From an uncultured Anaerolineae bacterium (GTDB taxonomy: Bacteria; Chloroflexota; Anaerolineae; Anaerolineales; Villigracilaceae), in assembly GCA_903822545.1 (NCBI GenBank), contig CAIJPN010000142.1:1-60228 (forward strand): a DNA stretch of 60,228 nucleotides, written 5' to 3'. Shown here piece by piece: positions 17,905 to 47,943 of the stretch. The position numbers and the translations under genes were made by a program. The notes beneath the pieces were generated by a model. It searched no databases. It was not told the DNA's origin and saw only the letters and a program-made list of their open reading frames with translations. Every line of letters starts with the position of its first letter. The first letter of the stretch is position 1.

Positions 17905-17998
17905 AGTCGGCAAGGATCGAAAAGGCAAACTCACTGCAAAGTGAGGACGCAAAGTCATGGATCTGCCCACCCAAGCAGACCGCCAGACCGCCGAAGGA
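17905..17998 (+). ncRNA. c-di-GMP-I (GEMM-I) riboswitch aptamer
   Basis: The core shows AAGGCAAA, then stem CTCACT/AGTGAG capped by a GCAA tetraloop, then the invariant GACGCAAAG, a P3 stem TCTGC/GCAGA, and the terminal ACCGCCGA. The base aligned with Vc2 position 20 is G (17924), expected for c-di-GMP. It precedes a terminator and then the subtilase at 18132, so ligand binding should set expression of that secreted protease. Confidence 0.85.
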
Positions 17999-44473: not shown

Positions 44474-44576
44474 AACTGCATAAACTGACTTCCAGCAGTG
44501 ATTAATTTCGGCAGTTCTCAAAAAAAACTGCAACAAAACCCATTTCCCCGCATCTTTGCGCAAAAAAAGAGCAACC

Positions 44577-45257
44577 ATGACGAAAATCCTTATCATTGAC
44601 GACGAACCCAGCATCACCAACCTCGTTTCGGCCTATCTCAAACCCGAAGGCTACGAAGTCTATGTCGCTTCAGATGGCCCAGCCGGGCTGAAATCGGCAC
44701 GCGCGTATAAACCTGACCTGATCGTGCTCGACATCATGCTCCCCGGCATGGATGGGCTGGAGCTGCTCAGCCGCCTGCGACGGGAATCGGATGTCTACGT
44801 TATTTTGCTCACGGCCCGCACCGAGGAAACCGATAAAATCGTTGGCTTATCGGTGGGTGCAGATGATTACGTTACCAAACCTTTCAGCCCGCGCGAACTG
44901 GTGGCGAGAATAAAATCAGCCCTGAGACGTTTACAGACGGGAACAGGCGGCGGGGCAGGTGAGATTCTTTCCTTTAGAAAGGTGCGAATCGACTCTGGGG
45001 CGCGCATCGTTACCGTAGACGGGAGCCCGATCGAACTGACCGCCATCGAGTTTGACCTGCTAAAAGCATTGGCCGAGAACCGCGGGCGCGTACTCACCCG
45101 CGAACAGCTTCTCGAAAAAGTCTGGGGCGGCAGCTATTACGGCGAAATGCGCGTGGTGGATGTCCACCTGGGGCATGTGCGCCAAAAATTGGGCGATGAC
45201 AACCTGATCGCCACAGTGCGCGGCGTGGGCTATCGCTTCGAGGACGAACCGCTATGA
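44577..45257 (+). CDS. OmpR-family response regulator
   Basis: 226 residues. Receiver domain with acidic pocket IDDEPS, phosphoacceptor Asp52 in LIVLDIMLPGMDG, and KPFSPREL; C-terminal OmpR/PhoB winged helix (VLTREQLLEKVWG ... VVDVHLGHVRQKL ... TVRGVGYRFE). The frame opens at a TTG seven codons upstream, but the ATG at 44577 starts the receiver fold properly. Its stop overlaps the ATG of the kinase gene by four bases. Confidence 0.95.
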   Translation: MTKILIIDDEPSITNLVSAYLKPEGYEVYVASDGPAGLKSARAYKPDLIVLDIMLPGMDGLELLSRLRRESDVYVILLTARTEETDKIVGLSVGADDYVTKPFSPRELVARIKSALRRLQTGTGGGAGEILSFRKVRIDSGARIVTVDGSPIELTAIEFDLLKALAENRGRVLTREQLLEKVWGGSYYGEMRVVDVHLGHVRQKLGDDNLIATVRGVGYRFEDEPL

Positions 45258-46402
45258 AATTCTTCCAGCAGCGCCTGGGCGCAAAGCTGTTTCTTTCTTA
45301 CCTCGCAGTTGTCATGGCGGGCGCGCTGGCGTTAATGTTGGCTGTCATGCTGATCGCCCCATATTCCTATGCTCGCCACATGATGACCGATGAAACCGGA
45401 ACCGCCATGCCCATGATGGGGCGCGGGATGGGTCTCGGACAGGGGCAAAATGCCCAGTCCGGGCAGGGCCTGGGCCTGGCCAACTTTCGGGCCGGGATTT
45501 TTGAAGCCGTCACCTACGCAACACTGGCAGCCATCACCGTGGCCGTTGTTGCCAGCTTCATACTCAGCCGCCGCATCGTAGCCCCGCTGCGCGCCATGAT
45601 GTCGGCCAGCCAGCACATCTCCGCCGGGCACTATGACGAGCGAGTTCAGGTTTCTGGCTCAGACGAACTGGCCCAGCTGGCCGGGCACTTCAACCAAATG
45701 GCCGGGCAGCTTGAACAAACCGAAAACCTGCGCCGCCGCTTGCTTGGCGATGTCAGCCACGAGCTACGCACCCCGCTGACCGGCATCAAAGGCTACATGG
45801 AAGGCCTGATCGATGGCGTCCTGCCAGCCACACCTGAAACCTTCCAACAGGTTTACCAGGAAGCCGACCGCCTGGGCCGCCTGGTAGAAGACTTGCAGGA
45901 ACTCAGCCGGGTTGAATCGCGGGCCTATGAGATGGAAATCCGCCCGGTGAATGCTGCCAACCTGGTGCAGACTGCCGCCCGGCGGCTTGCCCACCAATTC
46001 CAGGCAAAAAACACCCAACTCGCCCTGGAGCTGCCTCCTGACTCACTGCAAATCCTGGCTGATGAAGACCGCATCATCCAGGTTCTCACCAACCTGGCCG
46101 GGAACGCCCTGCAATACACCCCCGCTGGCGGGAAAGTGACCATCAGCATCACCACGCCAGATGGGTTCGCCTGCTTCACCATCACCGATACCGGCATCGG
46201 CATCCCACCCGACCAGTTGAAGCGCATCTTCGACCGCTTCTACCGCGTTGACAAATCCCGTTCCCGGCAAGCGGGAGGCGGCTCAGGCATCGGCCTGACC
46301 ATTGCCCGGCACATCATCGAAACACATGGTGGCCAGATCTGGGCTGAATCGGCCGGCGTTGGACAGGGCAGTTCCTTCCACTTCACCCTGCCGTTGGCAT
46401 AA
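45254..46402 (+). CDS. Membrane sensor histidine kinase with Met-rich sensor loop
   Basis: 382 residues. One membrane helix, a short extracytoplasmic loop of about 50 residues, a second helix, HAMP, HisKA with His169 (DVSHELRTPLTGIKGYMEGL) and HATPase_c (NLAGNALQYTP, DTGIGIPPDQL, GGGSGIGLTIARHI). The loop contains HMMTDETGTAMPMMGRGMG, rich in Met with a His, reminiscent of copper or silver sensing; this is an inference. It is translationally coupled to the response regulator. Confidence 0.93.
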   Translation: MKFFQQRLGAKLFLSYLAVVMAGALALMLAVMLIAPYSYARHMMTDETGTAMPMMGRGMGLGQGQNAQSGQGLGLANFRAGIFEAVTYATLAAITVAVVASFILSRRIVAPLRAMMSASQHISAGHYDERVQVSGSDELAQLAGHFNQMAGQLEQTENLRRRLLGDVSHELRTPLTGIKGYMEGLIDGVLPATPETFQQVYQEADRLGRLVEDLQELSRVESRAYEMEIRPVNAANLVQTAARRLAHQFQAKNTQLALELPPDSLQILADEDRIIQVLTNLAGNALQYTPAGGKVTISITTPDGFACFTITDTGIGIPPDQLKRIFDRFYRVDKSRSRQAGGGSGIGLTIARHIIETHGGQIWAESAGVGQGSSFHFTLPLA

Positions 46403-46452
46403 TTGCCTTTCATTAAAAACCTTAAAACATAACTTAAAATTGTCCATACCAC

Positions 46453-46481
46453 TTGAAAAGCACAAAAAAAAGTGCAATAAT
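46453..46481 (+). promoter_or_regulatory. Promoter of the triple riboswitch / muramidase transcript
   Basis: TTGAAA, 17 bp, AATAAT, close to consensus. Transcription should start near 46488, so the RNA would begin at the 5' side of the outer stem GCACT and run directly into aptamer 1. Confidence 0.7.
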
Positions 46482-46492
46482 GTGTTTGCACT

Positions 46493-46580
46493 CGATAAAG
46501 GGCAAAACAAACGAAAGTTTGTGACGCAAAGCCAAAGGGTCTAAAGTTATCCCCCGTAACCAAGATAGCCTGGCTGCCGA
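46493..46580 (+). ncRNA. GEMM-I riboswitch aptamer 1 of 3 (G at position 20)
   Basis: AAGGGCAAA, stem ACAAAC/GTTTGT with a GAAA tetraloop, invariant GACGCAAAGCC, then GGGTCTAA, a P3 stem GTTAT/GTAAC and the terminal GCCTGGCTGCCGA. The base aligned with Vc2 G20 is G46501, typical of c-di-GMP sensing. Confidence 0.85.
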
Positions 46581-46664
46581 TAAAAGCAAAACCAACGAAA
46601 GTTGGCGGCACAATGCCCTGGATCTAAAAATCTGAAAGTGAGATTCAAGATCGACCGGCTGCCG
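46581..46664 (+). ncRNA. GEMM-I riboswitch aptamer 2 of 3 (A at position 20, degenerate core)
   Basis: AAAAGCAAAA, stem CCAAC/GTTGG with GAAA tetraloop, then GGCACAATGCC in place of GACGCAAAGCC, GGATCTAA, a P3 hairpin (AATCT/AGATT) and the end GACCGGCTGCCGA. The base aligned with position 20 is A46585, the hallmark of the GEMM-Ib (3',3'-cGAMP) subclass. The altered core means it could be weak or inactive. Confidence 0.75.
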
Positions 46665-46757
46665 AAAAGCAAAACCAGGGAAACCTGGCGACGCAAAGTC
46701 AAGGGTCTAAAGTTACTTATTATTTATTAAAGTAACCATGATCGCCCGACCGCCGAA
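46665..46757 (+). ncRNA. GEMM-I riboswitch aptamer 3 of 3 (A at position 20)
   Basis: AAAAGCAAAA, stem CCAGG/CCTGG with GAAA tetraloop, invariant GACGCAAAG, GGGTCTAA, long P3 hairpin GTTACTT/AAGTAAC, and the end CGCCCGACCGCCGAAAG. A46668 occupies position 20. It starts right where aptamer 2 ends, with no linker. The following AGTGCAAA (46758-46765) is complementary to TTTGCACT (46485-46492) before aptamer 1, so one stem may enclose all three aptamers. Confidence 0.8.
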
Positions 46758-46771
46758 AGTGCAAAGTACGT

Positions 46772-46808
46772 CCTGCCGTTGAGAAATTTTCAACGGCAGG
46801 CTTTTTTA
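46772..46808 (+). terminator. Terminator downstream of the triple aptamer
   Basis: CCTGCCGTTGA pairs perfectly with TCAACGGCAGG and is followed by CTTTTTT. It precedes the muramidase start by 70 nt, so it can act only as an attenuator in the leader. Its CTGCCG also occurs at the 3' end of aptamers 1 and 2, which gives a possible competing partner for its second arm. Confidence 0.9.
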
Positions 46809-46878
46809 ATCGTTGTATCTATACGCGCTTTGTGTTAGTATATTTTTACATCACCTATCATAACCGCAAGGAGTAAAC

Positions 46879-47943
46879 ATGAAATACGTACCCGGCATTG
46901 ATGTATCTGGATGGGAACCTAATATCGATTGGCAGGCTGTGCGCAACAGTGGCATCAAGTTTGCCTTCCTCAAAGCCACAGAAGGCATCTACTTCACTGA
47001 TAAAACCTTTGCCCAATATTGGGCTGGCACCAAAAGCGTTGGCATCTTGCGCGGAGCATACCACTACCTGCGCGGTGAGTTTGACGCCAACCAGCAGGTC
47101 GATCTGTTCCTGAAAACCGTACACTTTGAACCTGGAGACCTGCCGCCAGTGTTGGATATTGAAAATATCAACAACGAGAAAATCTCCAACCAGGAGATGA
47201 TTGCAAAAGCTGAGATATGGCTCAAAAAAGTGGAGGCTGCCACAGGGCGCAAACCGATCATCTACTCTGGGCCATTCTTCCTGCGCGACCGCATGTCGCG
47301 CCCCGGCTACGGACTGCCACCGTGGTCAAAAACCTACCCCATCTGGCTTGCCAACTACCTGATCAACATGACCGAAAATTCCCTGCCCATCCAACCCGCC
47401 GGGTGGCAAGACTGGATTCTCTGGCAGTATAGCGATAAGGGCAGCGTACCCGGCATCCACAGCGGCGTCGATATGAACTATTTCCGTGGCAGCGAGGCCG
47501 ACCTGTACGCTTTTGCAGGTGCCCGCCCGGTGGAAGTCATCAGCACACCCACAACAACCACTGTAACTGCGCACAGCGTCCAGGCTGGTGATACAGTAGA
47601 GTCGATTGCCAAACAATATAGGGTCGAGGTAACTGAACTGCTCAAGGCCAACCCACAACTTTTACAAGCCGGCATGAGCCTGAAACTCCCGGCCGGGGCG
47701 GCTGCGCCTGTCACAACGCCTCCCGCAACAACGCCAGTCACAGCGCCGATCACCACGCCCCCGCAACAGACCGTTCCCACAACGACTGGGCCTTACACCA
47801 ACTACACCGTCAAATCGGGAGATAACCTTTCGGTGATCGCTGCCCGTTATAAAACCACCGTGGATAAAATCGTGGCGATGAATGGCCTGCCCAACGCCAA
47901 CATCATCTCGGTGGGACAGGTGCTTAAAATCCCGACCGCCTGA
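46879..47943 (+). CDS. GH25 muramidase with two LysM domains
   Basis: 354 residues. The GH25 domain (1-210) has GIDVSGWE with Asp8, PPVLDIEN with Asp93 and Glu95, and WILWQYSDKG, the expected catalytic face; it cleaves the beta-1,4 bond between N-acetylmuramic acid and N-acetylglucosamine. Two LysM domains follow, separated by a Thr/Pro linker: VQAGDTVESIAKQYRVEVTE and YTVKSGDNLSVIAARYKTT by parts. No signal peptide is seen, so export would need a non-classical route or lysis. AAGGAG lies 7 nt before the ATG. No phage genes are nearby, so it looks like a cellular gene, placed under three riboswitch aptamers. Confidence 0.93.
   Translation: MKYVPGIDVSGWEPNIDWQAVRNSGIKFAFLKATEGIYFTDKTFAQYWAGTKSVGILRGAYHYLRGEFDANQQVDLFLKTVHFEPGDLPPVLDIENINNEKISNQEMIAKAEIWLKKVEAATGRKPIIYSGPFFLRDRMSRPGYGLPPWSKTYPIWLANYLINMTENSLPIQPAGWQDWILWQYSDKGSVPGIHSGVDMNYFRGSEADLYAFAGARPVEVISTPTTTTVTAHSVQAGDTVESIAKQYRVEVTELLKANPQLLQAGMSLKLPAGAAAPVTTPPATTPVTAPITTPPQQTVPTTTGPYTNYTVKSGDNLSVIAARYKTTVDKIVAMNGLPNANIISVGQVLKIPTA

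Follow-up and report, generated by a model that had tools for sequence, protein, structure and literature searches.

A stretch of 60,228 nucleotides from an uncultured Anaerolineae bacterium (contig CAIJPN010000142.1; hereafter the window) carries three c-di-GMP-I (GEMM-I) riboswitch aptamers in a row, upstream of a gene for a GH25-LysM muramidase. The first-pass annotation took the arrangement for an attenuator of this gene, and the locus raises the question of whether the aptamers serve the gene behind them or belong to an RNA of their own. We consider it probable that the array is a free-standing ncRNA, some 320 nt long and with a promoter and a terminator to itself, in which a shared outer stem (P0) closes the three aptamers and whose role is most likely that of a c-di-GMP buffer or sink.

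Three c-di-GMP-I aptamers in direct tandem

Using cmscan with the Rfam model RF01051, we obtained three matches above the gathering score of 35 bits, and not fewer, lying end to end at 46491-46757:

46491-46581, + strand: aptamer 1, c-di-GMP-I (RF01051, 77.1 bits)
46582-46666, + strand: aptamer 2, c-di-GMP-I, core diverged (RF01051, 37.2 bits; 48.2 bits as 46575-46666 in the whole-genome search)
46669-46757, + strand: aptamer 3, c-di-GMP-I (RF01051, 51.8 bits; 60.5 bits as 46658-46757 in the whole-genome search)

The direct tandem of three aptamers proposed at first reading was thus borne out, and the E-values of 1.9e-13, 1.1e-3 and 3e-7 for aptamers 1, 2 and 3 in the 60-kb window rule out chance for all three. 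Aptamers 1 and 2 are separated by 0 nt, aptamers 2 and 3 by 2 nt. Two details of the proposal needed amendment, one of them in the outer stem (see below). The other is that the core type said to be shared by all three does not extend to aptamer 2, which reads GGCACAATG and not GACGCAAAG; this aptamer is the weakest of the three and barely clears the Rfam cut-off.

The bases G20, A47 and C92 (Vc2 numbering), which we take to be the ligand contacts, are present in all three aptamers of the window. Among 26 representative arrays, G20 was found in 26, 26 and 25 for aptamers 1, 2 and 3, A47 in 22, 21 and 25, and the CCG(A) end, whose first C is C92, in 21, 22 and 25, respectively. Across these representatives, aptamer 3 was the most conserved and aptamer 2 the least. 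All three window aptamers have a G at the ligand-selecting position, which presumably favours c-di-GMP over cGAMP, so that c-di-GMP is the more likely ligand. We infer that the RNA is made and that it would bind up to three c-di-GMP.

At the Rfam cut-off, two of the three aptamers passed in 7 of 7 arrays from relatives, and among 16 arrays bearing P0, three aptamers passed in 2, two in 13 and one in 1, counts that are affected by the dropping of overlapping matches of related families in cmscan. Since Rfam picks up just two of the three aptamers in most relatives, trivalency is uncertain. In many relatives the aptamers have an identity according to position, with CGACC in the middle one and CGCCA in the outer two. 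The Rfam annotation of the array consists of separate cis-regulatory aptamers only.

The arrangement recurs across Anaerolineales

A search of sister genomes with a pattern for adjoining aptamers turned up arrays, with the same order of parts on reading; a pattern scan over genome contigs gave at least 117 matches, many of them by chance, and is no census. A covariance model (R1) was built from aptamer 2 and the first part of aptamer 3. It matched at 75 bits or more in 60 of 152 genomes of the host's family, with one locus per genome, in 11 genera. The scan of the order gave matches at E ≤ 1e-12 in 61 of 400 genomes, ten of them in three other families; six of these ten have the outer stem, one is unreadable at the 5' end, and the remaining three (L280, L281 and L283) are laid out differently. 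A scan of the class with R1 gave matches in 12 of 396 genomes, all within the host's family. The search in relatives recommended at first reading thus found the arrangement within the family and related arrays in three other Anaerolineales families. Among the matches listed, the named records were Chloroflexi and Anaerolineales MAGs. In total 63 array loci (L211-L273) were collected, of which L272 was not parsed.

The conserved unit runs from the promoter through the first strand of the outer stem and the three abutting aptamers to the second strand of the stem and the terminator. Other multi-aptamer layouts were seen in L280, L281 and L283 (family f13), which have a TCTAG start, more aptamers downstream and no visible P0; L281 has one additional aptamer on the opposite strand.

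A predicted promoter and a terminator frame the array

The near-consensus promoter and the terminator noted in the first pass are both present, together with further elements in the flanking DNA:

44556-46402, + strand: genes for an OmpR-type response regulator and a histidine kinase (ORFs, Pfam; genomic neighbours, outside the RNA)
46421-46439, + strand: direct repeat CTTAAAA with 12-nt spacing, upstream of the -35 box; candidate response-regulator site
46453-46481, + strand: promoter TTGAAA-17-AATAAT (10/12 consensus bases)
46772-46807, + strand: intrinsic terminator, a 13-pair stem (46772-46800) followed by T6; predicted 3' end of the RNA

Because two promoter-like sites were found in 46400-46890, where 1.1 were expected, the consensus match alone is weak evidence for a promoter. 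Better support comes from its constant position in relatives: the -35 box sits 35 nt before the GC of the outer stem in 46 of 60. Judging from the spacing to the -10 box, transcription would start at about 46488, giving a predicted RNA of about 320 nt up to the terminator.

The terminator, which lies after aptamer 3, is the only one on the same strand in the array region. In all 61 arrays read, a terminator-like hairpin lies 9-21 nt past the final CCGA when 70 nt are searched; with 110 nt, the best terminator of L236 and L266 was 61-67 nt off. Only 1 of 183 shuffled segments reached the lowest real terminator score.

The CTTAAAA-type repeat upstream of the array is shared in kind between the window and genus g12, and CTTA(A/C)AA direct repeats occur every 11 nt just 5' of the -35 box in L259, L262, L263 and L267. 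In both the window and L259, an OmpR-type two-component system adjoins the direct repeats, which could be its binding site. A perfect inverted repeat, AGTGCAA-8 nt-TTGCACT, surrounds the -10 box at 46471-46492 and is followed by T on the minus strand; it is possibly an operator or a minus-strand terminator. Further, a TAGAACAnnTGAGTGATTGAAA block, located 55-35 nt 5' of the outer stem and covering the -35 box and upstream DNA, is conserved in most g9 arrays and missing from g1 and g12. It is possibly an activator site.

A covarying outer stem would close the three aptamers

The two flanks of the array had been singled out as perfectly complementary and able to close the whole array with one stem. 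The complement is exact, and relatives support the stem by covariation:

46485-46492, + strand: P0, 5' strand, TTTGCACT
46758-46765, + strand: P0, 3' strand, AGTGCAAA

When the leader was folded, as the first-pass annotation had recommended, P0 formed together with the terminator in the minimum-energy fold (z-score of -6.9 against 100 shuffles). Since the -10 box places the start near 46488, only about 5 of the 8 P0 pairs (GCACU/AGUGC) are surely in the RNA. In relatives, pairing was near-complete at the four innermost pairs and went down to half at pairs 7 and 8, which coincides with the RNA boundary set by the predicted start site.

At least four contiguous P0 pairs were found in 58 of 59 arrays, compared with 13% of 2950 random internal positions; these counts leave aside L269, which runs into a contig end, L240, which lacks its 5' end, and L223, for which a wrong end was picked. 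The letters of the stem differ by lineage, being GCUC/GAGC in most, GCACU/AGUGC in the window, GCACUU/AAGUGC in g12, GCACUC/GAGUGC in g11 and f13, ACGCUC/GAGCGU in g24 and part of f14, and UGCAUCC/GGAUGCA in other f14. Among 26 sequences, 8 of 8 pairs had changes on both sides. The paired P0 cells amounted to 83.2%, against 67.8% in shuffles, and the covariation score was 0.498, against 0.248 in shuffles (reached in 0 of 500) and at most 0.129 in slid versions of the stem. The number of further pair types (17) was not above chance, shuffles giving 15.6 and 123 of 500 reaching the real value. With one sequence per lineage, among them L247, which is not in alignment A4, 78 of 90 inner pairs formed, compared with 60.8 in shuffles (4 of 5000 as high). 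Swapping P0 strands between genera gave a weaker, modest energy signal (25 of 2000).

A DNA operator was also considered as the reason for TTTGCACT. The repeat it would need, AGTGCAA-8 nt-TTGCACT around the -10 box, is present in the window, yet relatives keep an RNA stem with other letters, and the stem was favoured.

Genes downstream of the array are not conserved

The muramidase gene begins 71 nt past the terminator and has an AAGGAG ribosome site:

46879-47943, + strand: GH25-LysM muramidase gene (a neighbour, probably not the target)

Downstream neighbours, defined as the longest reading frame starting within 600 nt (a rule that can miss short genes), could be read in 59 loci, L216, L226 and L269 being unreadable. 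They were ruvB in 33, an MBOAT acyltransferase in 8, a response-regulator/ParA in 4, other same-strand genes in 4, including the muramidase of the window, and opposite-strand genes in 10. The last comprise five xanthine-dehydrogenase-like genes (genus g12), two DnaJ-like genes, PurA, a zinc-ribbon protein and a methyltransferase. L255 was called ruvB by motif, the automatic pick being a spurious antisense frame; in L245 the opposite-strand neighbour is 449 nt off with a Pfam match below the cut-off; and the DnaJ-like label of L231 was given by eye on account of its resemblance to L235. Two f13 arrays beyond the host's family also have opposite-strand genes downstream, and in L277 a TPP riboswitch is the next element after the array.

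The neighbour thus changes from genus to genus. The window and four g12 genomes have a histidine kinase as upstream neighbour but differ in the downstream one. Downstream genes vary around fixed array ends, which indicates that the array keeps its own ends.

As 10 of the 59 neighbours lie on the opposite strand, five of them alike in g12, the RNA might be an antisense regulator of the 3' end of a convergent gene. We regard this as highly improbable: different genera have different neighbours, 49 of the 59 loci have theirs on the same strand, and in the loci read the terminator precedes the end of the convergent gene, so that the RNA need not overlap it.

Evidence against an attenuator

In the attenuator model, a triple c-di-GMP riboswitch leader would act through the terminator on the muramidase in the window and on other genes elsewhere. 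The parts are all in place, that is, promoter, aptamers, terminator and, 71 nt on, a same-strand gene with its ribosome site; same-strand neighbours prevail in the relatives, a look at the gap before the muramidase in the window revealed no promoter-like site, and the accessible text on tandem glycine riboswitches (PMC9481103) offers a precedent of abutting aptamers with one expression platform. Several results speak against it. There is no conserved same-strand gene behind the arrays, since the neighbour varies and is reversed in the 10 loci mentioned. At the ruvB loci, the gene has its own TATAAT 12-13 nt before the ATG in 33 of 33 cases beside arrays and likewise at 18 of 18 readable ruvB loci with no array beside them, the window's genome included (8 of 30 such loci were unreadable by motif), so the promoter box is there with or without the array.

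No expression platform competing with an aptamer was found either, judged by pairing energy and by the coexistence of P0 and the terminator in the minimum-energy fold. In an antiterminator test based on pairing energy only (n = 57; L236, L266, L269, L223 and L240 excluded), no antiterminator was detected: the 5' arm of the terminator paired with its own array at -9.9 kcal/mol, compared with -10.1 kcal/mol for other arrays. Own-array pairing was stronger by 1 kcal/mol in 13 arrays and weaker in 17, and no array-specific alternative partner for the arm emerged.

Finally, among muramidase homologues from other genera, the 12 best had no GEMM aptamer within 1.5 kb on either side (0/12), and a role as muramidase leader was rejected on this ground. 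A 6S RNA gene adjoins these relatives instead in 8 of the 12 loci (L009-L015 and L019). The attenuator claimed for the muramidase therefore did not hold up, and we judge the model distinctly unlikely. Some read-through into the muramidase may occur in the window, and some control by this route is conceivable, given 49 same-strand neighbours among the 59 and a gap in which no promoter-like site turned up.

A predicted trivalent c-di-GMP receptor

With the attenuator set aside, the sequence evidence makes it likely that the array is a free RNA. In the proposed mechanism, the 5' flank of aptamer 1 would pair with the 3' flank of aptamer 3, and the resulting P0 would replace the P1 stem of each aptamer. 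P0 would hold the RNA at its 5' end and the terminator would do so at its 3' end. The whole is a predicted trivalent receptor for c-di-GMP. Its most likely role would be that of an intracellular c-di-GMP buffer or sink, as has been proposed for merRNA of Bdellovibrio; we consider a buffer role plausible.

A free RNA could instead act in trans, with c-di-GMP opening or closing P0 or a loop and exposing a sequence that pairs with an mRNA or holds a protein. All the evidence for a free RNA applies equally here, and the available part of PMC3627812 cites trans-acting riboswitch RNAs of Listeria. A candidate sequence exists as well: the GCUGAACUGAGC hairpin, P3 of aptamer 1 with a GAACUG loop, was present in 37 of 60 arrays. 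Its distribution is confined to certain genera, namely 33 of 40 arrays in g9, 2 of 3 in g18, 1 of 2 in g8 and 1 of 1 in g6; it was absent from all 14 arrays of the remaining eight genera, and no unpaired stretch conserved across genera was found in the 60 arrays. What is conserved across genera are the aptamer cores, the outer stem, the promoter and the terminator, and for this reason a receptor or buffer fits better than an RNA that works by pairing. We hold a trans-acting, ligand-controlled RNA to be less likely than a buffer and give it a small but real chance.

Extending the buffer reading, we tentatively suggest, as a possibility that falls somewhat short of even, that the arrays form an undescribed and widely conserved family of free RNAs in Anaerolineales (Chloroflexota), in which one closing stem welds three aptamers into a trivalent receptor that is abundant, sets the level of free c-di-GMP and is loaded cooperatively via the stem. 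Such an RNA would be the counterpart of a second-messenger buffer.

Relation to known tandem riboswitches and free c-di-GMP RNAs

Triple c-di-GMP-I aptamers as such are not new, and this candidate claim was rejected, since they are in print (PMC4759541, PMC9481103; as far as the accessible texts go). The triple-tandem riboswitch Bc3-5 of Bacillus thuringiensis has been characterised (PMC4759541) and, like the array, has three tandem c-di-GMP-I aptamers. According to the portion of that paper available, each aptamer of Bc3-5 forms a full riboswitch, has a terminator to itself and acts independently before the cspABCDE operon. The array differs in that its aptamers abut and have in common an outer stem and a single terminator, and in that no target gene is conserved. 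With 0 and 2 nt between its aptamers, it has no terminator after each of them.

The accessible text of PMC9481103 reports 12 c-di-GMP-I triplets and 347 doublets, and c-di-GMP is enriched among tandemly arranged riboswitches (PMC9481103 and PMC12452182, in the parts at hand). The view of the first-pass annotation that a triple is rare agrees with the former numbers, but not with the 60 of 152 genomes of the host's family in which abutting arrays are common. As described in the available sections of both papers, the computed triplets and doublets are gene-controlling tandem riboswitches, each unit complete; these sections contain no description of a free triple RNA or an outer stem. The tandem glycine riboswitch resembles the array in its immediately adjacent aptamers, which have one common expression platform, and differs in ligand and fold, in being cis-regulatory and in having, as a rule, two aptamers (PMC9481103, same portion).

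The closest functional parallel is merRNA of Bdellovibrio bacteriovorus, a massively expressed 445-nt ncRNA with a c-di-GMP riboswitch, which has no conserved downstream reading frame and has been proposed to be a c-di-GMP reservoir (PMC3627812, from the text available). The array likewise appears to place c-di-GMP aptamers in an RNA without a conserved downstream frame, a likeness drawn by comparing descriptions. In the accessible text, merRNA is reported as not conserved outside Bdellovibrio (PMC3627812), whereas the array is conserved across many genera. Our literature search, in which subscription journals were thinly covered, found no paper on a free triple c-di-GMP RNA with abutting aptamers and a covarying stem. 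With triplets and one free c-di-GMP RNA already known, the best reading of the array would be a variant with a conserved abutting triple and a common stem.

c-di-GMP-I aptamers are catalogued as cis-regulators. If our reading is true, the array would join merRNA as a second and much more widely distributed example of an RNA dealing with the messenger itself. The common stem offers a direct test of structural coupling between aptamers, for which about 60 natural variants are supplied.

Other c-di-GMP aptamers in the genome and in relatives

Besides the array, the window's genome has three further single GEMM aptamers and 26 GGDEF matches. One single c-di-GMP-I aptamer, the fourth aptamer in the window, lies at 17914-17995. 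In contrast to the array, the aptamer at this locus and the one on contig C29 form a terminator arm with their own 3' end, and for the single aptamer on C83 a 7-nt complement occurs within the terminator arm. In the segment 17914-18030, the aptamer 3' end doubles as the terminator 5' arm in the manner of a typical ON switch, and the gene that follows looks, by eye, like one for a secreted subtilisin-type protease. Ordinary c-di-GMP-I doublets with about 70-120 nt between the aptamers were seen at L038, L039, L041, L042, L043, L044, L052, L057, L059 and L060; several have a terminator-like hairpin between the aptamers and, by eye, downstream genes with signal-peptide-like starts.
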